DNA of 64,000 bases, from contig JARGXX010000121.1 of assembly GCA_030374765.1 (NCBI GenBank), positions 434,001 to 498,000 of the forward strand. The letters run 5' to 3'. The stretch comes from Agarophyton chilense (taxonomy: Eukaryota; Rhodophyta; Florideophyceae; Gracilariales; Gracilariaceae). Position numbers and translations under genes: made by a program. This document shows positions 4,176 to 64,000 of this stretch, piece by piece. The number at the start of each line of letters is the position of its first letter. Positions within the stretch are counted from its first letter, which is position 1. The notes below the pieces were generated by a model. It saw nothing but the letters and a program-made list of their open reading frames with translations. It did not search any database and was not told the DNA's origin.

Positions 4176-4178
4176 TTT

Positions 4179-11767: not shown

Positions 11768-12257
11768 TGTACCTTTTGGTTGAGTAATTGTTCGTAATTG
11801 TAATTGTAATTATATTTATTTTAGTACAGTAGTGAAGTGGCCACCTGGCACTGTAGCCAGTGCTGGCCAGGTCTCTGACACTAGGTCAGAGACCGTGCCT
11901 TGCTGGCACCTCCCGGGTGATCTGGAGGGTGCAGGCCACTGCATATAGGGAACTGCATCTCCTCCACCCTAGTCTGATAAAGACAGGAACCACTTGGGTC
12001 ACGACTATACCTTTTGGTTCATTGTTTTTCAACTACCACACAGGCTTTCCCGCGCGTCGACGCCTACAATCGTTCACCTACACGGTAAAGGCTAGTTGCC
12101 CCGCCGTTTGCCCCTGCGGGTTTTCACGGTGTCCTGTTACCATCGAGGTTCATTACGTCTACCTTCTAAGGTTGAGCGTCACCACGCTCCCTACAGATGA
12201 GCATCACCACGCTCTCGAGACAAGACAGTAGCATACCCCAGAGGTGAGTGTACGACA
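11768..12257 (+). repeat. 3' LTR of element A
   Basis: 490 bp, direct copy of 3712-4175 with TGTACC start and TGTACGACA end. It differs by substitutions and by the roughly 27-bp duplication near 12190-12216. A decayed pol fragment of another element follows immediately. Confidence 0.92.
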
Positions 12258-20300: not shown

Positions 20301-20532
20301 CGACCACAGCATCTCCCGCAATCACACCAATCCCTCTAACAAAGTTTCCCCATGGTTCCGTTTCATCCCCTTCTCCTCCATCAAAGGCTCATTTCACGTT
20401 GTCCGCCAGAATTATCCCACCAAGGCTTTCTTCCCTTCCCTCCACTGGCGATTCCACCTCTTTTACGTTAGCAGATCCTACAGAGACCCACGTGCTCGGG
20501 CATACGACTCCACCCAAAGTGAACACGTTTGA
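17351..20532 (+). pseudogene. KDZ-type transposase of K1 (frameshifted)
   Basis: The chosen start, ATG at 17351, places a zinc-finger-like Cx4C pair at residue 4 as in the K2 copy; a frame change follows at once. The long frame is 17485-18438, ending in a TAA, and the same frame then continues past single stops (near 18655 and 19420) to 20532. The region 18890-18960 reads FSFEPLHNFHLGISKLIKLA, resembling the conserved PLHN...LG block of KDZ/Plavaka transposases. After a TAG at about 19420 comes FRTLKFHLLDHII and a YEHAHLLFKNHYRRT block, like the K-H-L-x-H and final Glu/His region of that superfamily. The last 350 residues are conserved with K2 (FVRFFEVTKPVD, PWFRFIPFSSI, YRDPRARA). About 1,050 codons in all. 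It would cut and join transposon ends if intact. Similarity is judged by eye. Confidence 0.72.
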
Positions 20533-29076: not shown

Positions 29077-30483
29077 TGGGAATGCCAATATAGATTTAAG
29101 TGGAACAATCACGACGTGGTGGTAAGACTTAAACAATGGAGAATTATAGGAACGATACCTTGCCGGCATGTACACGGTGGGTACTTCCCTGACGGTATTC
29201 CGGAACACGCGATTTATAGCGACGACTGGGAGAGGCATATTGCTTTGCCTGACAACGCGATTGCGCGATATTCAACAGAAACCTTGTCCAAAGCCCGTAC
29301 TCGGTTCACCAACCTGATTTACCAGCGTCTTCACCGATTCATCAGTACGGTTCTCCTCACGCAGGACTGGAAACTAGATACCCGGAAAGCCCGTACCGAC
29401 GGTGAAGGTTACTCGTATACCGAGACACTCGTTGAAGTCGATGTTAGCGGTTGGCGCGGTGTGCGCGGTGTGCGTGATGCAGCTCTCTGCTTTCAGCAAC
29501 CTCTTCTCCGTGCAGAGTTCCGCTTCCTTCGAAAGCGTGGTATTCCCTATTGGGATTATCCCCGTTGGGAACGTCGTATTCGATTACGTTTGGGCTATTT
29601 GGTGCCGTATCAAATGATCGAGATTGACCGCATCCGGCAGAACGCGCGCTTCGGGCGCTACATCGGTATTACGGAGCATTGGGCGGCAATCGAGAGTTCT
29701 CTTGGTTGCCCTGTGGAGCTCCCACCGGCGATCTCCTACATCGGGTCCGCGTTGGTGAACGACCCGTTCTCGAGATATTGGACGGTGGTTTATACCGAGT
29801 TTATCGCCAAGATGGCCGTCTTCCTCCTGTGGGATGCTTATGATACCTTTAGCGTTTGGTACATGTCGCCCACAGCGCAAAAGTATGCGAGAGAACTCGA
29901 TCTTTCCCTTGTCCTGGGATCCCGTGCGAACCATGCCGACTTCCTTCATCTTGTGGATTTGATCGACAGTGTCGATTGGTCTGGAATTCCAGCTGATCAA
30001 TCCGCTAGCGAAACCCGTGCAAGACACCACGACCATTCTCCTGGACGAACAGCAAGTGCTGGAGATTTCGTTTGGTACGACCCATGGACGTGCCAGTTGA
30101 TCACCTCCGAGCAGGCTCACTTTCTTCGGAAGAACCCGCGTTAATTGCCACCAAACTAGCTTACTGGATACATGTACGATGCTACTCGATCCGAGAACGG
30201 AGAGGAACCGTATGAGGAAGCGCCGGGAGCTGAGGCTGAACTCGGATACGAGGACGAGCCAGAGCTGGCAGGTGTAGCGACTTCCGTCGATCAATCCGCA
30301 GCGGCGGGAGTTGCTCAAGAGTACTCTCATGGGTTTACCCAACAACCGAGTGCAGTGCCGGTCGAAGATCCAGGCTTGGATCCGCTGAGGCAGTTTCTCT
30401 TAGATGCGGGCTTTCCCTTGGACCAAGTTGAGGATGATCGTGCACAGCTTCTCACGAACCTTCATGCTCGCACGTCTCTTTGA
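29077..30483 (+). pseudogene. Opposite-strand gene of element B (aORF), N-terminally truncated
   Basis: The frame is open from just after a TAG at 29074; the first candidate start is GTG at 29116. TAA at 30142-30144 and TAG at 30157-30159 interrupt it; the same frame resumes to a TGA at 30481-30483. The protein is clearly homologous to the one at 53527-55302: shared blocks include PLLRAEFRF, LGYLVPYQMIEIDRI, RYIGITEHWAA (E: RYVSLPDWWSS), ELPPAISYIGSALVNDP, AYDTFSVWYMSP, GDFVWYDPW, and a C-terminal RQFLLDAGF helix. About 110 N-terminal residues present in E are missing. The gene is transcribed toward, and converges with, the pol of element B on the minus strand. No known domain is recognised. 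Trp/Tyr-rich blocks suggest a folded globular protein. Confidence 0.8.
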
Positions 30484-30541: not shown

Positions 30542-30602
30542 ACTCCGGTGACTTCGTGTCTTCACGTTCCCTTCTTATCTTCTAGTCTTCATCTCTTCTC
30601 GT

Positions 30603-30783
30603 TTCTCGAGTTCTTAACTTCTTCTTCTCGCTTCTCGAGTTCTTAACTTATTCTTCTCGCTTCTCGAGTTCTTAACTTCTTCTACTCGCTTCTCGAGTTT
30701 CATTTTTCCCTTCTCGGTTCTCGAGTTTTTCAATCCTTCTTCTCGCTTCTCGAGTTCTTCAATCCTTCTTCTCGCTTGTCGAG
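30603..30783. repeat. 29-bp tandem repeat between two convergent gene ends
   Basis: TTCTCGAG, or a one-base variant, recurs at 30603, 30632, 30661, 30690, 30718, 30747 and 30776. The rest of the unit is pyrimidine-rich on the plus strand (CTTCTTCTCGC). There are no unique spacers. It lies between the stop of the opposite-strand gene and the stop of the B pol. Confidence 0.9.
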
Positions 30784-30899
30784 TTTGTCATAGGTGATAA
30801 TCAGTAAATGTCCTTTGCTTGCGTGTTTTCACTTTTCTTCCACATGATTTCTTGTTTTCTTCTCGTCTTTCGAGTTTTTACTACCTTGGTAGCCCATAC

Positions 30900-33308
30900 T
30901 TAGAAATAGGATGAGCCCATGAGCCCGACTATCAAGGAGTCGATCTCCCTGGGGAGTGGTAATCGCATGCGTCGATGATATCGCACGAGCTGCGAACGGA
31001 GGAAATGAGCTATAGGTTCCCACGCATCCGCTTCCGGTGGAAAACCGTACCAACGGACTCGATATAGTAATTCTCTGGTATCTTCATGCTCGCCATGTTC
31101 ACATATGCGATCCATAACATATTCCTGGGCGTTTCGTAATACTTTCCCTGTTGGCGCGAGACTCCTGTTAACAGGTTTGAAGTGCCTTAGGGCTGACCCA
31201 AGCGTCTCTGTGTTAGCAGTCTCCGCGTCGCTAAGCATTCGCTCGTCGACTAACTGTCGTTCTGCCCGAAGGGGCAGTATACTCATTCCTTGAGAACCTT
31301 TCTCAGATAAAGAGCTATCCAGTTTTCCAGGTTCCATAGAAGCGTACTTCTTGCTACTTCTCAATTCCATTCGGGGATGAACTTCCTTCGGTTTATCCGA
31401 TTCTGACCGCTGTTGGGTGGCTGATGGTGCTTGCACCACAACAGGAGGCGAGACTTCTTCTTCTTCCTGCCCACGTGGGATGGGAGCCGATATCGGCGAA
31501 ACAGCGAGTGGCGCTTCACCTGACGGTTCAGCCTGAAGCGGCAACGGCGCGTTTTCGCGTGCACTCGTTTCCAAGTCCTTGGGGTCAAAGTCCAAAACAT
31601 CTTTCCTGCGTTCAGGTTCCATTTCTATACTCACGGGTGTGCGCGTGCCACGGGGCATATCCCGATACTTCGAGAAGCGGTCGGTGATTACCAATAGGTA
31701 GCGATAACATCGCCTTGAGCGAATCAATTCCCCTAGGATGTCGATACTGACGTATTGTAAAGGCGCTTTTGCCTGGAATGATGTCATCGGTTTCCGCTTC
31801 CTGTAAAGCTTCACGTGATTCTTTGCACATGTTTTACACTACCTCACTGTAGCATGGCAGTTCATTGCCAAAGTAGGCCAGTACAAATCTCTTCTTAGAG
31901 TTATGAACAACTTGGTTCCTCCTGGATGACCAGACAGCCTGCTGTAAAGTGCCAGATGGAGTACTCGACTCTTCAAGACGTGTTGAATCACGATTTGATC
32001 ATGATTTTCCACATGTCTTAACAGTATTCCTCGTGAATCGATGAAAAGAGGAGCTCCTCCCCCCCGTTAAGACGAAAGCGTATCGACGCACAAAACGTAT
32101 CGGCGTGTTGTTCATTGAGGAGCTCAGTGCACGAGATTCGCTCGAGTCGAACTAAAGGGTCAGTGTCTGCTAATGAAAGGAACGGGTCTGCATCCGAATA
32201 ATCATCAACGGTCTCTTGTTCCTCTTCTTCAAAAGATGGTGAATGGGTCTCCATGTAGAAGCAAGGTATCTCGTCATCTATTTCGCCTTGGGTTTCGCTC
32301 AGTGTTTTGAGTCGCGATAGCGCGTCAGCGTGGACATTGGCCAATCCCTTCTTATACTTCACTTTGAAATCGAATTCAAAAAGGCGTATGCGCCATCGTG
32401 TGAGACGACCAAACGGGTCTGTAATGGACAGTATCCATCGTAGAGACGAATGATCCGTGTTGACGGTAAAACATTCTCCTTGGAGATACGGTCGCAATGC
32501 GGTTAGAGCCCAAACGACTGCAAGGCATTCCTTTTCTGAAACAGAATACTTCTTCTCAGCTGCGTCCAGCAATCTTGATCAGTAACCAATGGGTTTGCGT
32601 TCACCATCAGGGTGTGTTTGAAAAACGGCACACCCTACTTGGTACTCGCTAGAGTCGGTATCCACTGAGTATGGCAGGTTGGGGATGGGAAGCGCCAAGA
32701 CTGGGGCTGTAATAATCTTTGTCTTCAGCGTGTCGAACGCTTCCGCTTCAGCTTGTCTGAATTGTTCCAACTGTACTAGATGTCCTTTACCCAGCTTTGC
32801 GTTGAGCAGTGCCGCTATATGCGAGTATCGCGGCACGAATCGTCGGTAGACGTTGCAGAAGCCTAGAAAAGAACGCAATTGCTTCTGTGTCGACGGAGAT
32901 TGTACTTCGCGGAGAGCCGCTGTTTGTGCCTCTTGAATGGCAAGCTGTCCCGGCTTGATGACATGTCCTAAGTATCGGACGGTGCCGGCGAACCATTTGC
33001 AGTTCTTGAACTTCAAGGTGATACCTGCGCTCTGTAGTGCTTTGAGAATCTCCTCGACATGCCTTGAATGGCTTTCCACATCCTGAGAAAAGATAATCAC
33101 ATCGTCCAAATAGACTAAACAAGTCTTTCACTTGTATCTTGAGAGCAAGATGTCCAGAGTACGCTGGAAAGTAGCGAGTGCATTCGTTAAGCCAAAGCGC
33201 ATCCTTTTAAAACGGTAGAGACCAGCGTGACACGCAAATAGGGTTTTATCTTGGTCTTCTTCCGCTACAGGCACCTGCGTCTGTGTTCTCGGAAAGCTAG
33301 TATTGGAA
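30900..33308 (-). pseudogene. pol: Element B pol: RT-RNase H, deleted integrase, chromodomain
   Basis: Read on the minus strand, the RT starts inside the palm (FACHAGLYRFKRM), with a TGA near 33131 just before CLVYLDDVIIFSQ. RNase H follows (VDTDSSEYQVG, SEKECLAVVW, NTDHSSLRW), interrupted by a TGA near 32579 where a Trp is expected. A stop-rich stretch (31830-32020) holds the start of integrase. From 31814 the frame reads VSIDILGELI then LLVITDRFSKYRDMPRGTRT: the integrase core is cut after its first catalytic Asp and joined to the linker before the C-terminus. The last ~70 residues are a well-preserved chromodomain (YVMDRICEHGE, LLYRVRWYGFPPEADAWEP). The 5' part of the element is missing; the homology ends at a short repeat at 33278-33300. 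Confidence 0.9.
33278..33300 (+). repeat. Short shared repeat, copy 2
   Basis: CGTCTGTGTTCTCGGAA followed by AGCTAG, the same block as at 16117-16135 and, inverted, 51381-51405. It marks the point where element B pol homology ends. Confidence 0.65.
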
Positions 33309-40664: not shown

Positions 40665-41000
40665 GTATTTTAAAATATCCCGTAACCCCGCAGCCGATTC
40701 GTCATCATCTTTTCCTATGGCCTAACGCAGTGCGCGGCTGATTCCGTCCAGCTCGTCTAACAGTCGCGATCGCTGCACTTGAACCCCCACTCCTGCGTAT
40801 CTTCGCCATGTGCGCGGTCCCGTTGCATCTTGCGGTCCCTGGTCAACTCCCAATGGTCACCCTCATCCCTTCGCTTCCCTCCCGCCTTCCCCATGTCACG
40901 AGCAAGCCCTTGTGAACAGACAACTTTCGAGCCGGAAACGCCGTGCCGAACCGGCTTACAGCTGTGCCTTGCGAAACAATGCGACCATCTCTACCATCCA

Positions 41001-41025
41001 CCCCCCCCCCCCCCCCCCCCCCCCC
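41001..41025. repeat. Poly(C) run of 25
   Basis: Homopolymer 93 bp before the DCP1 start codon. It keeps an upstream frame open by encoding poly-Pro but lies outside the chosen coding sequence. Its length is likely unstable. Confidence 0.95.
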
Positions 41026-41117
41026 TCGCTGTCTCCCCCGTTTCTCCCGTACGGCTTTTAGGCGTGTCTCCGTGCGATTCATCTCGGGCCCCGAACGGTC
41101 TCGTGCTTTCCGTGAGT

Positions 41118-41966
41118 ATGACGGCTGGTATTGATTTCGACCCTGCACGTCGTGATGCTATCCCCGCTAAAATGAACTTTTCCGTGCTGCAAAGAGCCGA
41201 CTCAGCTGTTACAAAGGTACTCAAACTTGACTCGCACCTCTGTCTCCATAAGCTCGACGACAACCAAGCGTGGCGTCGACTGGATATCAAAGGCTCTCTC
41301 TTTGTCGTCGAGCTCCATGTAAACCATCCGAACAACTCTGCCCGCGCTCGCCACCGCATTTTCATCATACATCGCAAAAGCCTTGAAAACTATTCCGATG
41401 ACTTCGTCATCGGAAACAAGGAGATCCAGCTTCAAGACCAGATGATCATTTACCCAAACTCCAAACAGAAAACAATCGGAATCTGGTTTTATCATAAACC
41501 TGAGGCTTCTTCCGTTTTTCAACTTCTCCAGGCTCTTGTAGAAGGAAGAAATCTCTCTGCGACTCATTCACCGCCCGTCGAAATGCTCTCCTCCTCCCAA
41601 TCCTCCGAAAAGTCTGCCTCAAAACCTCAATCTGCCCACCTTCTCGATACCTCCCCACGCACTCAACGTACACAGAAGCGCGCCCCACGTAAAGCCAATA
41701 TCAAGAACGCAAAGACCCTTCCTCAAATTCCCAACCCGCGTCTTCAGAAACTGCCCATCGATGCACGCTTGCAAACCACCCAAAATCCCACACCGAGTGA
41801 GGCGTCCAGTGTGCAAGATAATTCACCAGAGCGCTTCTTTCCCGGATTGAAACATTTTCATGGCGTAGCCGGTGCCACTCTACCACCTGATGTGAAAAAT
41901 TCTTCCGTGATGGAAAGTGTCGCAGTAACTATCCAACGTTGGATCGAAGAAACGACCCGCCACTGA
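41118..41966 (+). CDS. DCP1: mRNA-decapping enzyme subunit 1 (DCP1)
   Basis: DCP1 binds and activates the decapping hydrolase DCP2 in cytoplasmic mRNA decay (P-bodies). The 282-residue protein starts at MTAGIDFDP; an upstream in-frame extension runs through a poly(C) tract and is rejected as 5' UTR. Residues about 19-142 form the EVH1-type DCP1 domain: a helix (NFSVLQRADSAVTKVLKL), then AWRRLDIKGSLFVVELH, the HRKSLENY block, IQLQDQMIIYPNS and GIWFYHKPEASSVFQLLQAL, in the order expected for DCP1 proteins. The rest is a Ser/Pro/Gln-rich tail with a basic patch (KRAPRKANIKN); no clear C-terminal trimerisation helix is seen. The frame has no breaks. With the DCP1 fold motifs all present, this is the best-supported host gene in the window. 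Confidence 0.9.
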   Translation: MTAGIDFDPARRDAIPAKMNFSVLQRADSAVTKVLKLDSHLCLHKLDDNQAWRRLDIKGSLFVVELHVNHPNNSARARHRIFIIHRKSLENYSDDFVIGNKEIQLQDQMIIYPNSKQKTIGIWFYHKPEASSVFQLLQALVEGRNLSATHSPPVEMLSSSQSSEKSASKPQSAHLLDTSPRTQRTQKRAPRKANIKNAKTLPQIPNPRLQKLPIDARLQTTQNPTPSEASSVQDNSPERFFPGLKHFHGVAGATLPPDVKNSSVMESVAVTIQRWIEETTRH

Positions 41967-45903: not shown

Positions 45904-48900
45904 TCAAGTTGATTCTTTTGTAGAGAAACAAGCTCTCGCTCGTGGGTCTCGGTAGAATCTGTTGATATAGAAGCGATGTTCATGCCAGGGGAGGGGCGGG
46001 AAGAAAGGGCGTGCTGGGTAGTTCTGGCGGACAATGTTAAAGGAACAGAGGATGCCGGAGAAGGGAACGAGACCGAACCAGGGTGCGACATAATAGCCAG
46101 AGCGTTGGAATCTGTTTCCAGCGGGGGGGAAGGTGTGGCCCTGTTCATCTTCTGTTGCCCAACGGAGGTTGATGCACTTCAGAGTTTCATCAACGTGATC
46201 GAGGGGAGTTGTGAGTTCGAAGAAGCAGACGAAAGCGTATTCGCGTTCGTCACGATTTTCATCTTTTTGGGAACGCGAAGAAGGGCGAGGAGCTTGCAGA
46301 CCCAAACAGTGGGGAAGTTACAGTTAGGTGGTGGAGTACCGTAGACGAGAATGTGAGAGAACTTTGGAAGTTTGGAAGGACCGAAGGTGGAGGTGGCAAA
46401 TATGCGCTGTGTGAAGGGGACTGGTGGTTCTCTGAAGCGGATGCAGTTGAATTTTTGGTCGACGTCTTGCAAGGCGGGGGTGAACCCGCTGGGGATGAAG
46501 GCGTAGCTGACCAGGGAGAAGGTAAGAGAGGAGAGAGACAGGGAAGAGGAAGAGAGTCCGAGAGCTTCGAGGCACAGGTCGTGAAAGGGTGAAATGGCGT
46601 CGCGTGAGATTTAGGTGATGAAAGAAAGGGTGGAAGAGGTGAACATGTTTGAGAGAGAGGCATTGGAGCAGTTTCGGTTTGCACGGAGGTACTTCTTTGC
46701 AGTGATAATGTCGCGGAAGAGCACGGTGGTACCGTCGCGGATCATGGAAACTGTCGGGCATGACGGAAGGAGGAGTTTGAGGAGGAGGAAATGTGGTGGG
46801 GAATGGCGGTTGAGTTTCGGAAGCCTTCTGTGAGCTGGATTGCGTCGACTGTTTCTCTGTGAGCGGTTGAAGATCTTCGGGATGTGCGTCGATAGTGGTT
46901 TCTGAAGAGGAGGTGTACATGTTCGTAGATGCCGGCGTCAGTGAATTAAAGGCCTCCGTATAGATCAATATCGGCAATGATGTGGTCCAAAAGGAGGAAC
47001 TTCAGTGTTCCGAAGTGAGAAGCTTGGAAAGGGGCGAGGACGGAGACGCAGAGAGACTTGAAGTGCTTGATGAGTTCCTGGAGGGCGCAAAGTCGTTTGT
47101 CTCTCCATTCTGAGGTGGTGTTGTGGTGGAGTCCGGCGGTGAAGAGGTCTGCGTATGCTGTGAAGATGGATGTGATGGGAGCTGTGTCAACTTCACCGCA
47201 ACAAGGGTCGAAGAAGGCACCTACGAAGGGTAAGACCATGTCGAAAGCGCGGTAGTCTTTTGCCTCGAGCATGCCTTTGATGCCGTCCAAGGTAAAGAAC
47301 CCGTTTAGGTACGTACCCTTTTCGGGTGTGGAAAAGTCGATGTGCAGTCCGGATACGGAGAAGTTGGCTTCGATATTTGCGAGGATGTTGTTCGCGTGGG
47401 TGAGAAGGGAGCCTCGGATGGATTTAAAGGATTTCGAGAAGCCGTTGGAGGACGCGAGAGGGGTGAAGAGGCTGTCGGACTTCAAGCGTTCGATGGTTGC
47501 CAATTTGACGAGCTTGGAGATACACAGATGGAAATTGTGAAGAGGTTCGAAGGAGAAGATAGAGTAAGGGGTGAGGAGTGGGGATACATTAAGAAGAGGG
47601 CATGTTTCGAAGAAGGAATGGTACGCGGAGAGGGAGTTTGTGCAGAGGAGAGATGCTGCTTGGTCTCTGAGAGTTATTGCTACGCGCGGTCGGCGAAGTT
47701 GTTTGGCGTCGTTGGCATCCTTGAGAAGGGCGTGGTGTGCGGATCTGGTGTGGCGGGTGTGGGAAATAGTTCGAGGAGACACGGAAGTGAGGTGGAGGTT
47801 GAGGTCGGAGCGAGGTGTTAGGCATCTGTTGCACGGCTTGGATGGGTTTGTGCCGTATAGGATGGCGAGGATGTCTTTTGCTTCTGGAATGTCTGCAAAA
47901 TAGTTTGCGAGGACCTGGTGGCACTGTCGGATGACATGGTATTCATCACGGAAAGGGAAACCCTTGAGGGTGACTGTAGCGAGGGGTTCGAGGATGGTTT
48001 GTAGAGATTCTTGGATGAGTTCCATTCGAGTGGTGCGTCTGAGGGCTGAAGAAAGAAGGTGGCCTTCCATTGAGTCCTCGTTGGATGGGGAGGAGGCGGC
48101 GTCGAACGAGGTGGGGAAGTAGCCAAGAAGGGTGTAGTTGCAGGAGATGCAATGGCGGCGGAAGGAGTCTGAAAAGTTGAAGAGGGTGACGTGAAGGGGG
48201 TAAGAGGTGATAGAGAAGCTTCTCAGGGAGGTGGATGACTTGGTCGAGTAGAGCTGGATGAAGCCGATGAAAGATTCCATGCCAGTGATGTCCGCGTTGT
48301 GCCAAATAACATCTGGGTCTTGAGAGCAGAGGATGTGGTGTTTGAGGTCCGGATAAACAAAACTGCCGAGTTTTGAAGCCATGGGATGAGCGAGTGCAGG
48401 AGAACCATCTGAAGAACACTGTCTGACGGGCTGGAAGAAGGTGTTAGCGCGAGTGGCGTAGCGAAGTTGTTGGAGAAGGACATCGACAGGGTTTTTGAGG
48501 TAGAGAGTTGCAGTGTTGTTTGAGGGATTGTGACGAATGGTTGTGGATTTGAAGCCGATGGAGCCGACAGTGTCCTCGAATAGTTTGGAATGAAGTTTAA
48601 GGCAGTGGGAGATGGAGGGAACCTGTTCAATGAGTGTTTGGGAGTAGTTGGGGTCCTTGAAGGGGTAATGAGTTCGTCGTCTTTGGGTTTGCCGAGCTTG
48701 GTGGCGATGAATGAGATGTAGGAGACGATAGGATGGGGCTTCACGAATGGGCGAGGGCTGGGAGAAGGGAAGCGAAGAGAAGCGTTGAGAATGTGGGCGG
48801 CGTCTACGGAGCGTATGGCCAGAGCGAGCTGTCTCGAATGGTAGTCGTCCTCTTCTACCAGCGGAAAGATGTTGGAAAGGCGATTGGAGATGCCAACGGA

Positions 48901-49083
48901 GCGGGTGTCTGCGTTCTGGACGCGTGGGCGCTTCGTGCGTGGTGGGAATTGAGTTCCATCTTTTGGGGTGGTGGCGCGGAAGGCGTTGTGGGTGGTGCCG
49001 TAGCGACATTGGCGCTGGTGTTGGACAAGGGAGGCATGACCTTTTGTCTCGAAGGTGCACCTTGGAAAGCGACAAGGCAGCAT
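45904..49083 (-). pseudogene. KDZ-type transposase of K2 (frameshifted)
   Basis: ATG at 49083 gives MLPCRFPRCTFETKGHASLV then HQRQC, a C2H2/C2HC-like zinc finger, as many Plavaka/KDZ transposases have at the N-terminus. After ELI near 48680 the frame shifts into the long frame that runs to 46946 with LKLHSKLFEDTVGSIGFKS, FSFEPLHNFHLCISKLVKLA (KDZ-like PLHN block), DFSTPEKGTYLNGFFTLDGI, VLPFVGAFFDPCC and FLLLDHII. Further frame changes follow; the C-terminus is read at 46305-45904 (REYAFVCFFEL, PWFGLVPFSGI, YRDPRARA) and matches K1. The total length, 3,180 bp, equals that of K1. The upstream part of the long frame, before 49083, belongs to another frame and is not coding. The TATATAGTATC box at about 49163-49171 lies some 80 bp upstream of the start. 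Confidence 0.75.
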
Positions 49084-49160
49084 GGTGTGGAGGGTGCCTG
49101 CGCGCGATCTCGAAAAGTAAACCGGGGAGGTGAAAAAGACGTAGGACGAGGAGAGAGGGG

Positions 49161-49171
49161 GATACTATATA
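49161..49171 (-). promoter_or_regulatory. TATA-like box of K2 transposase
   Basis: On the minus strand it reads TATATAGTATC, about 80 bp before the ATG at 49083, followed by a pyrimidine-rich leader. Assigned by position and sequence only. Confidence 0.35.
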
Positions 49172-49817
49172 CTGGCCGGAGGTGAGTAAGATGCACGAAG
49201 AGGACGGTGGGGAGAGTTTAAACTTATCAGGCGTACTCACCAAGGTCAAGTGATGCGCCAGAGACACCCACAAGTCGTGCGGCAAGACAGAAACGGCGCA
49301 TATGTGGCTTGGAAAGTGGGTTGGAATGAAAATATTGAAAGTTGAATATTTTTGAGCAGCGGCGTGTACTTGTATTGATTGTGAGTAGTGGCCGGATGAG
49401 CAGTTGTGGGATCTTGAGATCCTTCGATATGATGTTTTCTGGACCTTGTGGACCTTCAGCGTTTTCTAGGTGCGTGAGAAGCTGTATTGGGCGTGCGTTT
49501 CACAAGTGCTGACTCTGTTTCTATTTGTGGGTGAGCGGGCGCAGCACGACCGGGGCGTTTTGTGATGAGGGGCGGTGTGGGGGATGACGGGTTGACCAGC
49601 TTGCGATTGAGATGTACGTCGTCTATGTTGATCTGGGGCCTTGAAACTGTTTGTGGTCATGCGCAAGCGCGCAAAGAGCGAGGGGAGTGATGGGTGATGC
49701 AGCGTGGGGTGGAGGGTAGGCGGGTGAGTGGGTTGTAATTTGGAGGTACGCGGCGCGCTACGTTGACCTGGTGTGTTTTTTCTCCTTCTGGTTGCTAACA
49801 TGGGAAATCTATTTCAG

Positions 49818-52626: not shown

Positions 52627-53480
52627 TGTAGGACAATGCCCGAAAGGGGGAAAACCTACGAAGACGTCCGGATCTTCCTCTCACGAGGTAACCGGCGCGG
52701 TAGAGCCCTCCAAGGGATCGGCGCGCAATGCCGGGTGTAAGCCGGAGCCGAACCGTCGCGACGGGCGCAGGGAGGCTGAAAGAAGCCGAGATTATCCGCG
52801 TAATGCGGTGCTTGCCTATCCTCTGAGGAGGCAAAACCCACGAGAGTGGCGAGCACGACAGGTGTCAGTGCGAGCCGCAAGAGCGGGAATTGCCCAATGA
52901 AGGGGAGGAAAAGGGAAGGAAAATGTGAACGGAGGCAAGAGAGCGAGGTTGACCACGAGTCGCAAGAGGGGACTCGGGAATAGCCGGCACTGCCGGGTGT
53001 AGCAAACCGAAACCACGAAAGTGGGAATAGATACCAAACACACGAAGGTTGCTTGAACGTCCAAGGGGGTTGGGTAGCCGTGCACCACGGGAAATCCCTC
53101 CGTAAGGAGTTGTATATCCGCGCAGGCGGTTCGACCCAGAGCCAAGATCTGGAAGACCAAGATCACCCTTGTTGGGGAGACTATACTGGACCGGCGGCCG
53201 CGAGGCCGGCGGCCTAAGTACTGTAGTCACCGTAGAATACAATAAATAAAGTCTATCCTAAATAGCTCAATGTCCGTCTAACAAAAGGGGCCAATCTGGC
53301 GGCCACGTGTCGCGCGGGCGCTGCGGCCACGTTTATGGCACCCAGTCCCGCCGGTGCATCACCGGCGTTCCGGGTGTCGCCGTGAAAGCGGATTACTCTT
53401 ACTCATAACGAGGTTGCACGCCGGAGGCTCCGGAAAAAACTTAAGTCCCCAAAAACCTCCCTGGAGGACGTTGCTCTTCA
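52627..53480 (-). repeat. 3' LTR of element E
   Basis: 854 bp. On the minus strand it starts TGAAGAGCAACG right after the PPT and ends TGTCCTACA. It matches 63148-64000 across its length. The short open frames inside it (52565-52834 and 52816-53166 minus among others) recur in both LTRs and are not taken as genes. Confidence 0.92.
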
Positions 53481-53492
53481 TATCCCCCTCTT
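53481..53492 (-). promoter_or_regulatory. Polypurine tract of element E
   Basis: On the minus strand AAGAGGGGGATA immediately precedes the LTR start TGAAG, the expected place for the plus-strand DNA primer. It fixes the LTR border. Confidence 0.75.
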
Positions 53493-53526
53493 AAGACAGG
53501 GCGAACACCTCGAAGAGGAAGTCGGC

Positions 53527-55302
53527 ATGGCAGCTCGTCATGATAAGAGCGCGTCCGACACCGGGTCTCCGGAAACCAACACACCTTCACCAAGGATCCC
53601 ACGCACGCTCCCCGCATCCGAATCCAACAACAGCACACCAACACGCACCATGTCCAACCCCGACCGTCATAACACATCCGCGACTCCCGCCCTTGGCGGT
53701 TCCACCGGCTTCTGGTCTGCGCCCCACCCTGGGGATATTACCAACCTCGCGTACGAAGACCGTCGTATTGGCGCCCGCTTTCGCGGACAAATGGACCCAC
53801 CGCAGTGGCCGACCTACGACGCCCTTGTGGGTGCGAATCCGGGAACTCGGCATGGCTCCGCGAGGTTGCGGTATGCGCCTTGGTTTCACCCATTGGCTGT
53901 CCGCGACGAGGATTTGATCCAATCCTACACCGATAACTCGGAGATGCTCCCGGGCGACCTGCCCGGCGTGGTGACCCTGTCCTGGGATTGGCGTAATCGT
54001 ATCGCCATCCCGGTACACCACATACTCCGCCGACGCGGTGAATCGTTTGCGGAGGCTCAGGCCGCGCTTGTGCGCATCGCTTATCTCAGGCACCATCGGG
54101 CGCCTTTCGAGTTCCCGATACCGCCAGAGGTCGAATTCGACGTCCACCTTTACCGCACTCGCGGGGAAATGTCGTACTGTGACCGTCTTAACGGATTGGA
54201 AACCCTCGCTTGGAGGGGCACACCGATCGCTCGGCAAGAAGCCCTTTGCTGGGCACGACCGATTCTTCGGGCAGAGTTCCGCTATTAACCGCGGCAGTCG
54301 CGCTCGAACTTCCTTCAGAACTTCATCCGCGATGAGCGGCGTTGGCGGGCCCGGACCGGGTATTTCGTACCGTACCAGAACACGGAGATTGAGCGCATCG
54401 CGCCTGCTCACCGACGTGGTCGGTACGTCAGTCTCCCAGACTGGTGGTCCTCCTTGGAGGCGTGCTGGGGTTGCTTCGTTGAGCTGCCCCCAGTATTCAC
54501 CTATGTAGGGTCGTCGTTCTTGAACGATCCCCAGTCGGGGTGGTGGTCCGTCGTGGTTAGCGAATGGGCCGTCCGCACTGCGGCTTTTATCCTCGCTGAG
54601 GCGTACGACCAATACCGATTGTGGTACGTGCCACCGCGTGTGCGGGCTGCGATCCGTCGTTTGGACATGCGCATCCCCCTCGGGGGCGAGGCGAACGAAG
54701 AAGAGATGCTGGGCCTCCTCGACTTTGTTGAGGGGGTCCAGTGGGATGAGGTCCCGCTGGAGAACTCCCAACGCATTCAACCGCGTCGCGAGTCTGGCCC
54801 CGGACTCGGGAGGAATACCGCGCTAGCGGGGGATTTCGTCTACTTCGACCCCTGGGAGTACCACGAGATCAGCCGCGAGGAAGCGGAAGCCAACCGGCAT
54901 GCGCCGCGTGAAGTCCCGGCCGACCACCCGAGAGTGTATGTCGACTCGAGCGACTATTACCGCGACTATGCGGATGGTGACCCGACGGTCGACAACGAAC
55001 CGGAGGATCCGGGTTACGCTCCGATGGAGGATGACGGGTCCGGCGAGGCCGGTGAGTAGTCCGTTGAATACGGTGGTGCGGCTCCATCCGGGGCTGCTGA
55101 TGCCGTGCGAACGGATTCCTATCCGACTCCATTGGTGGCGGGCCCGCCTGCAACTGCCGCTGGCGCGGAGCGGGGCGAGGTCATCGCGCGCTTCCTTCGG
55201 AAGGTGGGGCTTCGCCCTTCCGAGATCTCGGGTGATGTGGCCGCCATGCGGGGTGCCTTAGCCAACCGCCTGGGCGGGGGTCCACCTCGTGCGGAGGAAT
55301 GA
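53527..55302 (+). pseudogene. Opposite-strand gene of element E (aORF), two in-frame stops
   Basis: A single frame of 592 codons from ATG at 53527, only 46 bp from the LTR border, to a TGA at 55300-55302, broken by TAA at 54286-54288 and TAG at 55057-55059. The N-terminal 60 residues are Ser/Thr/Pro-rich and likely disordered. The globular part has WFHPLAVRDEDLI, LSWDWRNRIAIPVHHILRRR and then the blocks shared with element B: ARPILRAEFRY, TGYFVPYQNTEIERI, RGRYVSLPDWW, ELPPVFTYVGSSFLNDP, AYDQYRLWYVPP, GDFVYFDPWEYHEIS. A C-terminal RFLRKVGLRPSEI helix is also shared. It lies between the pol chromodomain and the 3' LTR, transcribed toward pol. Its promoter would have to lie in the LTR on the opposite strand (inference). 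No known domain is recognised. Confidence 0.82.
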
Positions 55303-55361
55303 CCGGAGCTTCCGGTAGAATGTAGGGCGGCGCCACTAGGGCGCCCTTGCCAGTAGTGAGA

Positions 55362-55367
55362 AATAAA
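55362..55367 (+). terminator. Polyadenylation signal of the E opposite-strand gene
   Basis: AATAAA 59 bp after the TGA, in the same relation as in element B (30536-30541). Lies about 270 bp before the end of pol on the other strand. Confidence 0.6.
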
Positions 55368-55634
55368 AGAAGAGGGTCGCCTTTCCGACGCCATTTCCCA
55401 AGTCCACTTCTTTCTTTCAGGGGTACCGGCCTTCAACCGGGGTTCCGGCGTTGCAGGGAACCAGCCTAGCTGGGAGTTCCGTGTTTAACTGTGGGCGCTT
55501 CGCGCGCGGACCAGGTAACTGGCACGACCACCAACGACGTTGGGATAGCGTGAGCGGTTGCTTCCTTCCCCGCGTTGGGGCATGGACGGAGATGGCGCGT
55601 GGCGCCATCAGCCATTCCATTCCGTGTTCACGGT

Positions 55635-58600
55635 TTATCCCTCTTGGGCGTTTACCAGCGGGGCTGGGAGTGCGGTCCCCACAAGGCGGTGGTATCGTAT
55701 TACCGCAGAGCGCAGGAGGTGCTCGATGGGCTCCGGGGTGTCCCACTCAGGCCCGTATCCGTACCAGCGGGTCCGGTACTGGAGCACCCCGTACCCATCG
55801 TAGCTATGTCCGACGATTCGGTCGAGGGCGTACTCCTGCACGTAAACTTGCCGGCCTTGCCGGGTGGTGGTGACCCGAGCCTCAGCGCCACGTGGTGCTG
55901 GGCTCGTCGTTGCCTGTTCCGGGTCACCCGGTTTGTCATTCCTCTCTGCGGTTGTTGCCGGGTTGCCGGGGCTGCCGTACCGCTTCGCGGAAGTTGCCGG
56001 CGCGGCCGGGTTGTGTTCCCGCTGGGCGGTAGGGGCTTCCCTGAAGTCCGCTCTTACGGCGAGTTTGCGGGGGTCCTTCCGTCTTGGTGACGGTTCGCCG
56101 AAGGCCTCCGCTTGATTTGCGGCATGCGGCGTTCCCATTGGTGGGCAGTTTCCGCCGTGCAGTGCGCCGCGGGCGGTGAGTGGTTCACCGTCCCGGCGGT
56201 CCGCCTCCGCGGGGTGGCTATCAGCCAATGACCGGGATGCCGGGTGCCCATTGGTCCGATCTCCCGCCCGGGTCACGTGACCTTGAGAACGGGTGGTCGG
56301 TCCGTCGCGGACGGTTGGCTCCGATTGTTCGGCAAGGGAGGCGGTTTTCGACTTGTCGTCGCGCCCCTTTTGCCCCATGGGGTTCGTACCGTTCTCGACA
56401 GAGTGGCTCGCTAGACCTGCTTGCGCAGCGCCCGCCGGAGTACCGGTATCGACCGAAACGCTCGGTGTGCGACCGCGAATGCGCGGGAAGCCCTTAGTTG
56501 CTTCCACGCGATGCGGAGCGTCCGTAGGGTCTCGCTTCCCGGCTTCGGGTCTTCGAGCGCCTTGGTTCCCCTTGCGGGGTTGCGTGGCGGTCGGATTGAC
56601 TGCCGCGTCCCGCGGGAGCGGAGTAACGTCCGGCGACGATGCTGGATACCCGCTCGGGGGCCTTGCCCGGGGTGTCCGGTTAAACTTCCGTTGCGACGGC
56701 GATGCTTCCGCGATTGAGCGGGTCCCCTCCCCCTCCTTAGACGGAGCGACGGGTGATGGTGGGCTAACCGCATGGCGGGTATAAATACCGCTGCGCGTCG
56801 CCCGTAAGGGTAGCTGGCCGCGAGGGCCAGGTGTTTCCGGCATTGCCGGTGGTTCCGATAAAGTCGGTATATCGGAGAGACCCCGTGAGGGGTGCGGTAC
56901 CACGGCGGAGCGTGGTGCCACCGTTGTACCGGTTGTATCCGAGGCCGTTTCGACGGGGGCTGATGCGGTTTCCGCCTGCGGCTGTGGGGCGGCTACGATG
57001 CGGTCTTGTGAAAGACGTTCGTGGTCGCCGTTCTTGTCCACCACAACGGTGCCGGGGAGGGAGGACACGACCCGGAACGGACCTTCAGCGACAGGCGAGA
57101 GCTTGTGACGCTTGTCGGTCCGGGGGTTGTAGTACTCCCGGCGAACGAACACGTAGGTTCCCGGCTTGGGCGGTGCTGGTAGTGGTCCGCGTAAGCGGTT
57201 ATCAAAGGCCCGCTTGTAGGCGGCCTGGGCACGTTCCATGGACTTCCGGGCGACCGGTACGAGCTTGGTAATCCAGTTCTTCCACTTGAGACGGTATTGG
57301 TTCACGGATGGGAAAGAGTTGACCCTGTGTTGAGGTTCGACCGCCACTGGCGGGGGTGTCCTGGAGAGCACAAGCTCGAAGGGAGTCAGGCCGGTTGTCC
57401 GGTGGACCTGCGTGTTGTAGTCGTAGGTGATAGCATCAGAATAAATGTCCCACGTCATTGGGTGATCGGATACGTAGGAGAGTAGCGACGCGAGTAGGGT
57501 GCGGTTGAAGCGTTCCACCTGCCCGTTGGTTTGCGGGTGGTAAATTGTAGTAAACAGGTTCTTGACGTCGAGGATGCGGAAGACGTCCTGAAAGAACTTA
57601 GAGGCGAACTGCTTACCGTTACCGGATAGAACCTCTATCGGACGGCCATAAACGAACGCCCAGTGCGTAACGAAGGCGTTCGCAACCGTGAAAGCGGTGA
57701 TCTTCCGTAAAGGTACGGTGCGCACCAGCTTCGAAAAGCGGTCAGTGATAACCAAGAGGAACTTATTTCCCTTGCGCGTCTTGAGTAGAGGCCCGAGAAT
57801 GTCGATTGCGACAAACTCGAGGGGCGCCCTTGCGGGAAAAAGCTTCATCCGTTTGGACTGCTTCCGGAGTTTCACCCGGTTCTTTGCGCATTGGGTGCAG
57901 AACTGCACCGTAGCGTAGCAATCAACCGCCATAGCGGGCCAATAAAAGTCCCTTCGCAGGGTTAGATAAAGTTTTCTCCCACCAGAGTGTCTCCCGAGGG
58001 TCGGGTAGTGTGAGAGGTGGAGCACCCTTGTTTGCAGGGTGTGGGGGACCACGATCAGGGATCGGTGGTCCACCGTCCGGACGAGGTAACCGATGTCGTT
58101 TACCTCGAACGGGAGGTCCTCTCCACCGTTTAGGCGGGCCCGTATGCGCGTGCAGAACGGGTCGCCGAACTGTTCTCGGATCATCTCCTCGGTGGAGATG
58201 GGTACAAAGGTCCCGGGTACGGGTGTTTCATTCTCGCGCGCTGCGAGTAGCTCATCCATTTCCATGGTGTCTTCCCCGGTTTCGGGCCAATCCGACTCCG
58301 TCGGTGTTTCCCCTTCCAAGGTAAAGCACGGGATCTCGTCGACCTCCGGGTCGGCAAGTGCTTCACCTGTCGTAGGTAATCGAGAGAGGGCGTCTGCTTG
58401 GGTGTTCTGGACACCCTTTTTGTAGACCACCTCGAAGTCGAATTCCGCTAAGCGGAGGCGCCACCGCATTAAGCGGCCAGAAGGATCTGCGATGTTCAGC
58501 AGCCATCTCAACGAGGCATGGTGAGTGTACACGGTGAAATGAACGCCCATGAGGTATGGGCGCAGAGTGGATAGCGCCCAGGCCACTGCGAGGCACTCCT

Positions 58601-59534
58601 TCTCGGAGACCGAGTAGTTGCGCTCGTGGACGTTCAGCGTGTGGGACCAATAGCCAATTGGTTTGCGTTCCCCCTCGGGGGTGGTTTGGAACAGTGCGCA
58701 GCCCACCTGGTGGTCGCTGGCGTCGGTGTCGATGGAGTAGGGAAGCCCAAGTTTGGGCAAGGATAGGATGGGAGCTGTCGTAACGGTCTTAATCAAGGAG
58801 CGAAAAGATTCCGACTGATCGGTGGTAAATGGCGCAAGGTTCGGTGGCTGGCCCTTCCGCAGTAGCGCGTTTAGCGGAGCGGCGATATCCGAGAAACTCG
58901 GTATAAACCGTCGATAGACGTTGACCAGACCTAAAAAGGATCGGAGCTCCGTTTGAGTACGGGGCTCCTTCGCCTCGCAGAGGGACTTGATACGAACTTG
59001 TTCGATCATTAACCGTCCTGGACGGATGACGTGCCCGAGATACTTCACCGTGTCGGTGAAGAACTCGCACTTCCTCAACTTGAGGGTTATTCCTGCGTCT
59101 CGCAGTACGGTCATCACGTCCCGCACGTGGGTCAGGTGATCGTCCAGGTTTCTGGAAAAGACAATGATGTCGTCCAAGTAGACAAGGCACGTGCGCCACT
59201 TGAAACGCGACATCAGTATGTCTATTGCCCTTTGAAAGGTGGCCGGTGCATTGGTTAAACCAAACGGCATCCGCTTGAAACGGTAGGAACCCGAGTGGCA
59301 AACAAACGCGGTTTTGTCTCGGTCTTCTCCCCGGACTGGGACTTGCCAGTAGCCCCAGTTAGCATCCAGAGCCGTAAACACGGTAGCGTCCCCGAGCGAG
59401 TCGATACACTCGTCCATGCGCGGGATCGGGTAGGTGTCCCTCACGGTGACGGCATTGAGGCGGCGGTAGTCAACGCAAAACCGCCACGTGCCGTTAGCCT
59501 TGAGGACCAGCACCACCGGTGAAGCCCAAGGAGA
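55635..59534 (-). pseudogene. pol: Element E pol: RT, RNase H, integrase, chromodomain
   Basis: The open frame starts just after a TAA near 59535 and runs 1,293 codons from the first Met. RT: RFCVDYRRLNAV, FTALDANWGYWQV, FGLTNAPATFQRA, CLVYLDDIIVFSR, all intact. RNase H: SIDTDASDHQVG and SEKECLAVAW are intact, but the late catalytic Asp is His (VYTHHASLRW; elements A and B have TDH). Integrase: HHCC-like zinc part (HYPTLGRHSGG, CTQCAKN), core with AIDILGPL, then VLSGNGKQF where the second catalytic Asp is Gly, then NGQVERFNRT. A long Pro/Thr/Arg-rich tail (about 350 residues) precedes the C-terminal chromodomain (YALDRIVGHSYDG, LQYRTRWYGYGPEWDTPEP). Integrase chromodomains target insertion to marked chromatin in chromoviruses. 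The two substitutions make the copy non-autonomous although the frame is open. Confidence 0.93.
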
Positions 59535-60913: not shown

Positions 60914-61378
60914 CTATTCTTTTCCCTGTACAGGGTCCTGGTCGGGCGAAGGCCCGACTTCCTCGGCAACGAGTGCATGATTCCGTTGCACGGTAGCTAC
61001 CGCAGGAGCGGGTTGAGATCCACCAGCGTGGTTTGGCGCTGGTGCGGCGCGTGCCGGCTGAGCCGGTTTGTACCGATAATTCGGAGTGTGAGCCAATGCG
61101 TTGGGGAAGTCCGTCTTCGCGCGGAGATATGACGTGAGTGGCACGGAGCCCTTCTCCTGCGGGGAGAGGGCTTCGTAATTATCCACCACTCGCGCCATAT
61201 CGCGTAGCGATAAAAGGCATTGCGGGGAGGTGTGCCCGCGCTCGTAGCACAAGTGGCACACCAACGTCACTCCCGCGTTTCGCCGTACGGCATTCCGAGC
61301 ATCGGTGTATCTCCCGGGTTCCCGGTTTCCAACCCATCCAGAGCGCTGACTTCGTGTCATTCCGTTCGAGTACGGCAT
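60914..61378 (-). CDS. gag: Element E nucleocapsid part of gag (zinc knuckle)
   Basis: A minus-strand frame with one CCHC zinc knuckle, CHLCYERGHTSPQC (Cx2Cx4Hx4C), residues about 40-53, followed by a Pro/Ala-rich tail. It is in a different frame from both capsid (upstream) and protease (downstream) and overlaps the capsid frame by about 20 bp. It would bind the element RNA in Gag. No independent start is expected; it was probably joined to the capsid frame before an indel. Confidence 0.8.
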   Translation of the reverse strand: MPYSNGMTRSQRSGWVGNREPGRYTDARNAVRRNAGVTLVCHLCYERGHTSPQCLLSLRDMARVVDNYEALSPQEKGSVPLTSYLRAKTDFPNALAHTPNYRYKPAQPARAAPAPNHAGGSQPAPAVATVQRNHALVAEEVGPSPDQDPVQGKE

Positions 61379-63024
61379 ACGGGGACCGGAGTGCGGCGAT
61401 CATTTAGATAGAAGACCTGCCCGTTCTCCGTGTCCCTTGCAGTTGAGTCAACCAAGCCATCCGTCGTAGACGGTAATTCCGTTGTCGGAATAGATAAAAC
61501 ATCGTTATGGATGACACTCATATTGTCATGACCCTGTTTTGGGATGCCATCCGTCGCAAATAACGGTGAAGATGAGTCCGACTCAAGCAGCAATGTCTTA
61601 GCGGCCTTCGACCGGGTTCCCGGATTGCGTGCACGTAGTGCATCTCCCTCTGCGCGGGCAAACTGTACGAGTTCAAGGTAGGTCACCTTCGGCTCTTGTT
61701 CCCTGTAACGGGCGACAAGAGTCTTGATGGATGGATCCAAGCCATCAATGAACATCGTACAGCGTTCCCCAGCGGGGTATACATTACCACAACGGTGGAA
61801 AGCCTTATTCAGGCGTACCGAGTAATCGGTCTCGAGCTCGCCGGAGCGTTGTCGAGTGTCTCGCAAAGCGAATATTGCCGCTTGTATCGCGTAGTTGGTT
61901 GCGTAGGAACGCAGGAGGTACTGCACGGCCTCGGGCCAGCAGGTCACACCTCCTTCGGAGGCTCGCGACGAGCCCCGAACCGACAAAAACTGATCTTCAG
62001 CGACACCCCGTAGAAAGTAGGGTAGCGCCAAGTAGGCTTGTCCTTCGTTCATTCCGAGTAAATCGGCTTCCGCTACAAAGCGGTGTAGGAAATCCAAGAC
62101 CAGAATTGGATCATCCCCAGTAAACCACTGGTTACGAAGTGAAAGCTGCATCCGCTTGATGCAGTCTTTCACTTTACCCGTGTCACGCGGTGTCCGACCT
62201 AAAGAGGAACCTTCTAGCCGGTAATACCGGTAGGACAGGATTGTCCTGTACAGAGGGTTGGTGGGCTTCAAGGTTTTGAGGCCCGGATGTCGCCGACCCT
62301 TGGGGCGCGACCGGATGGCCCCGTAGGTGGCAGAGGACCGCTTTGAGCGGGAAGAGCGCCCATAACGATCCTGTGGGTCATCGCTCACCGACGAATCGGA
62401 ACTCTCCGAGTCACTCGGTTTAACGTCCGACTCACATGATGAGTCGGACGGGTGTCCGTGCTTACGGTCAGAATCCCGGTTCTTCCGGCTCTTCCGGTTC
62501 CGCGACTGGGTCTCCCGATGAGAGACAACCGGTCTAGCCGCGTTCGCGGGCGAGATTAACGTCCTCTCGACCGACTCAAGTCGGCTTCGGAGACGCTTGA
62601 AGCGATTCTCCATACCTTCTGCGAAGGAAGAAGGAGCGCCAGAACACTCGAGTAGTGTATTGACGTCCGACCGCAATACGCGGATATCCTCGGCTAACTC
62701 ACTTGTAGGGGGGTTAGCGAGGCTTCCTCGTAAAGAGGTGAACTCCCTCGAGAGGGTATTGTGAGCAGCCCGCAGGGAGCGGAGCTGCTCTTCCAAGCGT
62801 ACAACCCGCGCTTGGTCGACCAACCGCGGAGGCGGAGAAACCACCGTTGCGACGGTCGTTAACCCGGAATCGGGCTGCGGGTTTTCAGTGCCGGTGACCG
62901 GTATCTCCCGGGAAGCCGGTGTTGGAGCCAGGGCCTGTGGAACATCAGTGCCCCTGGCATCACCGCTCTGGCGGGAACGGCTGCGTGTTGCAGGAGGCTC
63001 CATGCTAGGCGGTTTCCTTGGCAT
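61357..63024 (-). CDS. gag: Element E gag, capsid part
   Basis: Start chosen at MPRKPPSMEPP (63024), between PBS and the body of gag; the frame is open further upstream through the PBS into the LTR, which is not used. A Pro/Thr-rich N-terminus is followed by a coiled coil (LEEQLRSLRAAHNTLSREF), a Ser/Asp/Arg-rich patch (SDSSCESDVKPSDSESSDSS) and a Retrotrans_gag-type capsid (DPILVLDFLHRFVAEADLLG, AVQYLLRSYATNYAIQAAI, DYSVRLNKAFHRCGNVYPAG, FIDGLDPSIKTLV). Same order as the gag of element A. The frame ends at 61357 soon after the capsid, 20 bp into the overlapping zinc-knuckle frame. Confidence 0.88.
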   Translation of the reverse strand: MPRKPPSMEPPATRSRSRQSGDARGTDVPQALAPTPASREIPVTGTENPQPDSGLTTVATVVSPPPRLVDQARVVRLEEQLRSLRAAHNTLSREFTSLRGSLANPPTSELAEDIRVLRSDVNTLLECSGAPSSFAEGMENRFKRLRSRLESVERTLISPANAARPVVSHRETQSRNRKSRKNRDSDRKHGHPSDSSCESDVKPSDSESSDSSVSDDPQDRYGRSSRSKRSSATYGAIRSRPKGRRHPGLKTLKPTNPLYRTILSYRYYRLEGSSLGRTPRDTGKVKDCIKRMQLSLRNQWFTGDDPILVLDFLHRFVAEADLLGMNEGQAYLALPYFLRGVAEDQFLSVRGSSRASEGGVTCWPEAVQYLLRSYATNYAIQAAIFALRDTRQRSGELETDYSVRLNKAFHRCGNVYPAGERCTMFIDGLDPSIKTLVARYREQEPKVTYLELVQFARAEGDALRARNPGTRSKAAKTLLLESDSSSPLFATDGIPKQGHDNMSVIHNDVLSIPTTELPSTTDGLVDSTARDTENGQVFYLNDRRTPVPVCRTRTE

Positions 63025-63129
63025 TGGCCACACCGTCTCGACGGAAGAATAGAAAGCAAACCGGTGAGACCGGAGAAAACCCGTTAAACGGAAAACAACC
63101 TCAGAGAGGACACAAGCGGTCTTGACTTT

Positions 63130-63144
63130 TAAGTCGGGAGACCA
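63130..63144 (-). promoter_or_regulatory. Primer-binding site of element E
   Basis: On the minus strand TGGTCTCCCGACTTA starts three bases after the LTR end (TGTCCTACA, then AAT). Identical 15 bases and spacing in element A. Confidence 0.82.
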
Positions 63145-63147
63145 ATT

Positions 63148-64000
63148 TGTAGGACAATGCCCCAAAGGGGGAAAACCTACGAAGACGTCCGGATCTTCCT
63201 CTCACGAGGTAACCGGCGCGGTAGAGCCCTCCCAGGGATCGGCGCGCAATGCCGGGTGTAAGCCGGAGCCGAACCGTCGCGACGGGCGCAGGGAGGCTGA
63301 AAGAAGCTGAGAATATCCGCGTAATGCGCTGCTTGCGTATCCTCTGAGGAGGCAAACCCCACGAGAGTGGCGAGCACGACAGGTGTCAGTGCGAGGCGCA
63401 AGAGCGGGAATTGCCCAATGAAGGGGAGGAAAAGGGAAGGAAAATGTGAACGGAGGCAAGAGAGCGAGGTTGACCACGAGTCGCAAGAGGGGACTCGGGA
63501 ATAGCCGGCACTGCCGGGTGTAGCAAACCGTATACACGGGCGGAACCACGAAAGTGGGAATAGATACCCAACACACGAAGGTTGCTTGAACGTCCAAGGG
63601 GGTTGGGTAGCCGTGCACCACGGGAAATCCCTCCGTAAGGAGTTGTATATCCGCGCAGGCGGTTTGACCCAGAGTCCAGATCTGGAAGACCAAGATCACC
63701 CTTGTTGGGGAGACTTTACTGGACCGGCGGCCGCGAGGCCGGCGGCCTAAGTACTGTAGTCACCGTAGAATACAATAAAAAAAGTCTATCCTAAATAGCT
63801 AAATGTCCGTCTAACAAAAGGGGCCAATCTGGCGGCCACGTGTCGCGCGGGCGCTGCGGCCACGTGTATGGCACCCGGTCCCGCTGGTGCATCACCGGCG
63901 TTCCGGGTGTCGCTGTGAAAGCGGATTACTCCTACTCATAACGAGGTTGCACGCCGGAGGCTCCGGAAAAAACTTAAGTCCCCAAAAACATCCCTGGAGG
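63148..64000 (-). repeat. 5' LTR of element E (cut by window edge)
   Basis: Matches 52627-53480. Compared with that copy it has a ~12-bp insertion near 63530 (TATACACGGGCGG). About 14 bp of its outer end lie beyond the window. Confidence 0.92.

Follow-up and report, generated by a model that had tools for sequence, protein, structure and literature searches.

A conserved antisense gene between pol and the 3′ LTR of chromodomain Ty3/gypsy elements in Gracilariales

Introduction

How does a gene come to lie on the opposite strand of an LTR retrotransposon, between pol and the 3′ LTR, and what would have kept it there? The question is raised by the window (the whole stretch of 64,000 nucleotides of Agarophyton chilense DNA that was analysed), in which a long plus-strand frame adjoins the minus-strand pol of a chromodomain Ty3/gypsy element, here called element E. 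Antisense ORFs in this position are a published class in plants and fungi. Passages of PMC7264820 and PMC11963269 describe the plant form as aORF-3R (Grande gene23, RIRE2, Retand), an opposite-strand ORF between pol and the 3′ LTR which occurs in most copies of a family, is ancient and is without known function; the same passages of these reviews, of 2020 and 2025, give no settled function for the 3′ antisense genes of LTR retrotransposons.

Results

Anatomy of element E

Element E, an LTR retrotransposon, occupies 52627-64014 on the minus strand; its last 14 bases lie beyond the window and were read in locus L039. Its parts are the following, in window coordinates:

52627-53480, minus strand: 3′ LTR, 854 bp, TG...CA, with repeat blocks at 97%
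53481-53526, minus strand: polypurine tract and short leader of the antisense ORF, read from the sequence
53527-55302, plus strand: antisense accessory ORF, 591 aa in open copies, broken in the window copy
55303-55634, no strand: gap of 332 bp that separates the antisense ORF from pol where the two converge, from the ORF coordinates
55635-59516, minus strand: longest frame of pol, with RT, RNase H, integrase and C-terminal chromodomain (Pfam)
61357-63165, minus strand: gag frame, Retrotrans_gag 21.4 bits, below the Pfam cut-off of 24.1
63148-64000, minus strand: 5′ LTR, which extends to 64014 past the window end

The two LTRs are 96.0% identical over 853 aligned bases (52627-53480 against 63148-64000), a primer-binding-like TGGTCTCCCGAC adjoins the right (5′) LTR, and the plus-strand motif CCCCCTCnTTAAG at the polypurine tract is common to the LTR ends of families B and C, described below. 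The flanks CCTAG and TCCTT gave no match as a target-site duplication and, because they differ, the window copy may be recombined. The whole region between pol and the LTR measures about 2.2 kb. At the C-terminus of pol, the Chromo domain (PF00385) scored 34.7 bits in family C, 34.8, 30.3 and 18.2 bits in the tails of family B, and 23.0 bits (E 7.8e-5) in element E, where the Pfam cut-off is 25.1; it is thus above cut-off in three of the five pol tails scanned, and below in element E and L046. By this chromodomain at the integrase C-terminus the E, B and C elements would count as chromoviruses. Some E-family copies are regularly spaced and have equal scores, three of them at exactly 9197 bp (G000:C68:3138181, 3147378 and 3156575) and two at 9249 bp (C77:295889 and 305138); these are perhaps tandem elements with common LTRs.

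The antisense frame runs for 592 codons counting the final stop, with its first ATG 46 bp from the inner edge of the 3′ LTR, and sits between the polypurine tract and the end of pol that encodes the chromodomain; it converges on pol without overlapping it. An earlier note on this DNA had described it as a 592-codon frame; the place, the strand and the 46 bp hold, and in the window copy the frame is not open, as there are in-frame stops at 54286-54288 (TAA) and 55057-55059 (TAG). Across the genome searched (79.8 Mb, 135 contigs), the frame is without a stop in 47 of 74 scored copies, the window copy counted, these 74 being the best-scoring subset of 1886 first-look candidates and so a biased sample. 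It is open to the end in loci L002, L003, L004 and L007, and five of the eight E copies fetched are stop-free after alignment to L002, the natural copy that supplied the 591-residue query protein.

The same arrangement in three families

A six-frame profile search of the window, with a profile built including the E and B proteins of the same genome, matched only the E and B pieces, with E-values from 1e-179 to 1e-11. The second of these belongs to a diverged element, B; a third gypsy element, A, serves as a contrast:

29077-30480, plus strand: element B counterpart of the antisense ORF (locus L009), interrupted by two internal stops, upstream of which no family LTR was found
30951-33277, minus strand: pol remnants of element B, 51-56% identical to E pol, with the chromodomain end at 30951-31127
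3707-12257, plus strand: element A, with a chromodomain-like end and LTR blocks at 3707-4175 and 11762-12257 that are 87.7% identical

The homologous protein that the earlier note had seen in element B, in the same place and orientation, is indeed there; over query residues 141-581 it shares 33% identity with that of E. A third family, C, came to light in the same genome with the Gracilariopsis chorda protein P0005 as query, and the arrangement is common to E, B and C: one C copy has gag, pol, chromodomain tail and antisense frame ordered as in E. Over the matched stretch, 54 of the 77 scored C copies and 36 of 118 in B are without a stop; across the whole frame, just 4 of the 30 B copies fetched lack a stop, and B is the more decayed family. 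Family B also has tandem repeats between the antisense gene and pol (2914-3198 in L040, and 30563-30814 in the window, in units of about 29 bp); passages of PMC11963269 report tandem arrays in the same region in about half of Retand elements.

The genomic context was examined at 44 distinct loci (45 rows, 8 E, 33 B and 4 C, of which the B row L047 repeats L023), which were fetched for carrying the gene, so that the counts cover gene-bearing loci rather than all E, B and C elements. A family LTR lies upstream of the antisense gene in 40 of them (the misses are L009, L030, L035 and L037) and a convergent pol tail downstream in 41 (the misses are L017, L034 and L037); counted by row, the figures are 41 and 42 of 45. 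Because 43 of the 44 fetched loci thus adjoin one or the other, L037 alone having neither, the gene is not a plain host gene in this genome; a protein found mainly outside retrotransposons, which the earlier note had named as the outcome contrary to its reading, is not what these loci contain. From the ATG to the inner LTR edge there are 24 bp in B, 46 bp in E and 81 bp in C, and in family C a TATA-like run lies between the two.

Element A, whose pol is 49% identical to that of E, has only about 0.95 kb between its chromodomain-like stretch and the LTR, and the six-frame profile search of the window detected no relative of the antisense gene in this one A copy. Related elements can therefore do without the gene, and it would follow that either the E/C/B lineage gained it or A lost it.

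Other parts of the window hold further features. Two inverted relatives of a Plavaka-type transposase, 66% identical, lie at 17727-20495 and 45938-48718, with Pfam Plavaka matches at E 1.4e-16 in 46949-49285 on the minus strand and 0.01 in 17485-18435 on the plus strand, and these stretches have strong opposite GC skews, about -0.45 and +0.42. On the plus strand, a host gene for a Dcp1-like decapping protein (40779-41963; Pfam DCP1 E 1.8e-23) is found in a C-skewed stretch (-0.35), and positions 1-2003 hold a piece of another gypsy-type pol (RNase H, integrase), 29-30% identical to the E and C pol.

Coding conservation and selection

Between families the antisense protein keeps 34-37% residue identity over 555-572 codons, while fourfold sites differ at 0.71-0.78, that is, they are saturated. 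For the pair E-C, dN is 0.69 and dS about 2.6; for E-B and C-B dS was not computable. By codon position, the differences are 0.46-0.50 at the first, 0.41-0.46 at the second and, highest, 0.67-0.72 at the third. The E-C, E-B and C-B alignments are stop-free in the frame of the antisense gene alone, of the six, the copies compared having been picked for being open in that frame; the same frame has the highest identity between families (33.5-36.4%), followed by frame -1 (29.4-33.3%), which has 18-27 stops per sequence, and its codon usage (RSCU) is the nearest of the six to that of gag and pol together (r 0.77, the next 0.72). Since silent sites are saturated, 34-37% of the residues still agree and only the frame of the gene is stop-free, the gene is, to judge from these alignments, kept by old purifying selection between families. 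The earlier note had proposed that selection kept the gene while two families diverged and that it may have an element-specific role, and this is strengthened by finding three families with the gene in the same place and orientation through silent saturation.

The other genes of the elements give a scale for this constraint. Pol identity is 70% for E-C and 59% for E-B and C-B (54-70% across pairs), and for E-C gag is 49% identical and the antisense protein 37%; from these between-family identities, the antisense protein is the fastest evolving of the three and yet clearly constrained.

Within families the signal is of another kind. The dN/dS ratio is 0.64 in E (8 copies; control frames 0.73-1.19) and 0.74 in B (30 copies; control frames 0.77-1.13), the lowest of the six frames in each case and near some of them; among variants shared by several copies it is 0.56 in B, with control frames at 0.59, 0.61, 0.69, 1.72 and 3.12, and in E only four such variants were usable. 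Copies decay after insertion, so that these ratios are uninformative: the comparison between copies proposed in the earlier note gives values below 1, and, blurred by the decay of dead copies and close to the control frames, they are not counted here as support.

The protein

No known family was matched above cut-off in Pfam, nor in NCBIfam or PHROGs, the last two searched with three proteins each, and the PDB sequences gave nothing above cut-off, with a single chain, NOP53, at E 4.5. Fold searches with the predicted models, which are poor, found no match. The statement of the earlier note that the protein resembles nothing recognised is therefore borne out within these limits and for the protein only, the class of antisense ORF itself being a published one. 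HBZ of HTLV-1 is characterised by a bZIP domain; the red-algal protein has neither bZIP nor any other Pfam domain above cut-off, the four families that reached E up to 1 among 15 members including no bZIP. PF04195 (Transposase_28) was matched in 0 of 15 members at E up to 1 and nowhere in the genome with an E-value limit of 0.01, a genome search that had no positive control, since 14 control genomes gave one match, below the cut-off.

Three candidate likenesses were set aside. E3_binding gave weak matches in 6 of 15 members (best E 0.029), situated in the core, not the tail, in those where they were located (P0008, P0009, P0010 and P0015); Ish1 matched one member of 15 at E 0.092, on the C-terminal hairpin (residues 510-536 of P0015), and is a hint only; and gag as the source of the antisense protein had an hhalign probability of 0.4%, with a gag alignment of two sequences.

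The better structure model, that of P0005, has a mean pLDDT of 60.4 and a pTM of 0.53. Its confidence is high over residues 321-390 and 411-430 (block means 85-95), lower in the remaining core and low at the termini, and it predicts a C-terminal helical hairpin at 518-529 and 541-555, with block means of 77-83 over 521-550. The last 120 residues are acidic in E, B and C (pI 4.1-4.2). In the same three proteins, simple hydropathy shows no segment of membrane strength (the best 19-residue mean is 0.93-1.24) and a simple pattern search no nuclear signal or basic cluster; no DNA-binding domain was recognised in the antisense protein.

Relatives and history

Protein searches, which scored about 8000 candidates each without the genomic context of the matches, returned homologs that, where an organism was named, come from Gracilariopsis chorda, Gracilaria domingensis and Agarophyton chilense, all Gracilariaceae, Gracilariales. 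Their annotation reads "hypothetical protein" or "unnamed protein product"; BWQ96_03215 and BWQ96_10156, from Gracilariopsis chorda, are examples. The proteins from Agarophyton share 52-90% identity with that of family B. Pattern matches in viral contigs (21) and in prokaryote genomes (51) yielded no confirmed relative in either.

In a tree of 17 proteins, rooted at the midpoint, with several forks open and with rows P7 and P16 on long branches, the E protein groups with the Gracilariopsis and Gracilaria domingensis rows (100/100), and the E and C side is split from the B side (96/94). The order of pol is compatible with this tree, E and C being closest. The simplest reading of the two would be that gene and element have been co-inherited; if so, at least the E lineage seems older than the separation of these genera, unless it moved sideways.

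Discussion

The gene, whose place in the elements, conservation as a coding frame and association with three families are established above, is best explained as an accessory gene of a chromodomain Ty3/gypsy lineage in Gracilariales, driven antisense from the LTR and probably acting as a regulator in trans; we regard this explanation as rather probable. The gene would be read opposite to gag-pol, with transcription starting inside the LTR on its antisense strand, and the LTR would act as a two-way promoter. The promoter is most likely within the LTR because the ATG is only 24-81 bp from its inner edge, and in B and E the start would fall inside the LTR since the interval up to the ATG could hardly accommodate a promoter; in family C, the TATA-like run could serve instead. 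For element E we propose the plus strand of the 3′ LTR as the candidate site. The predicted product would be a soluble protein of about 600 residues (591-618 aa), with a variable and probably disordered N-terminus, a conserved and mostly helical core, and a C-terminus made up of the acidic part plus the helical hairpin, and it would act in trans on the transcription, silencing or integration of the element. The regulatory role is a conjecture by analogy with Grande GENE23, the Retand ORFs and HBZ of HTLV-1. Several results tell against it or against the explanation as a whole: the within-family ratios close to those of control frames, the few fully open B copies, the negative pattern search for a nuclear signal, the failure to recognise a DNA-binding domain, and element A, which does without the gene. 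The whole suggests that these elements need an extra protein to control or complete their life cycle.

The main rival to a regulator is a protein that assists the particle or the integration complex structurally or catalytically, such as a capsid partner, a nuclear import factor or a targeting factor. The solubility, the partly helical core and the long conserved blocks would suit such a helper, as would a rate of evolution faster than that of pol and somewhat faster than that of gag (37% against 70% and 49% for E-C); however, the protein has no profile similarity to the element's own gag (the 0.4% of hhalign, from the two-sequence gag alignment), and an antisense transcription separate from the gag-pol RNA would be odd for a part of the particle required in fixed proportion. 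We consider a helper unlikely. It could also be that the antisense transcript matters as RNA, by pairing with the genomic RNA, by small-RNA silencing or by limiting copy number, the protein being secondary. Its complementarity to the genomic RNA would extend over about 1.8 kb, and functions of antisense RNA are discussed in passages of PMC7264820, but a role as RNA only would not keep the residues, a single open frame and the excess of third-position differences in three families whose silent sites are saturated; we hold this reading to be quite improbable.

Two other readings concern the nature and the source of the protein. Its location between pol and the 3′ LTR is that of the envelope-like or movement proteins of some plant elements; these are encoded in the sense orientation, whereas the red-algal frame is on the opposite strand, and the hydropathy maxima of E, B and C fall short of a transmembrane segment, so that an envelope-like protein is extremely improbable here. 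A host gene recently captured by one element, or lying there by chance, could be thought of as the origin of the protein; against this, three diverged families carry the gene in the same place, and the protein searches, made among about 8000 candidates each and without genomic context, led to no named function, although they leave room for a host homolog. This reading seems to us very improbable.

The favoured reading, an LTR-driven antisense accessory gene with a probable regulatory product, brings the red-algal elements close to several known systems. Like aORF-3R, the gene is antisense to gag-pol and placed between pol and the 3′ LTR, and this is so in all three families. The nearest comparison is Retand, of which passages of PMC11963269 state that it is a non-chromovirus, that antisense ORFs with Transposase_28 (PF04195) occur in 97% of its clusters and that its region between pol and LTR measures 2.9-6.6 kb; in contrast, the red-algal protein is without Transposase_28, the pol of its elements has a chromodomain, and the corresponding region is about 2.2 kb in E, with the ATG as close to the LTR in E, B and C as given above. 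Grande GENE23 is reported, in passages of PMC7264820 and PMC11963269, as nuclear and as transcribed from an upstream promoter. The fungal element Boty (Botrytis, Sclerotinia) also has an antisense ORF and is likened here by description. HTLV has, according to a passage of PMC7264820, an antisense promoter inside its 3′ LTR, a position that we infer also for the promoter of the red-algal gene.

In the open-licence PMC literature, judged by titles and abstract openings, no report of antisense ORFs in red-algal elements was found. The arrangement is already known; what is new here is another major host group, a chromodomain lineage, a protein unrelated to the known ones and the many open copies that three families contain, and with them a protein family whose organism-named members are so far only in Gracilariales. 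Possible, and on the doubtful side, is the further step that the red-algal chromodomain lineage would have independently acquired an LTR-driven antisense gene for a dedicated trans-acting master regulator of new fold (for example in anti-silencing or integration targeting), such 3′ antisense regulators having arisen separately in retroviruses and in Retand-type, fungal and red-algal elements. The red-algal gene in any case offers an independent comparison, in that features common to HBZ, GENE23, the Transposase_28 ORFs and the red-algal protein should reflect function, not ancestry.
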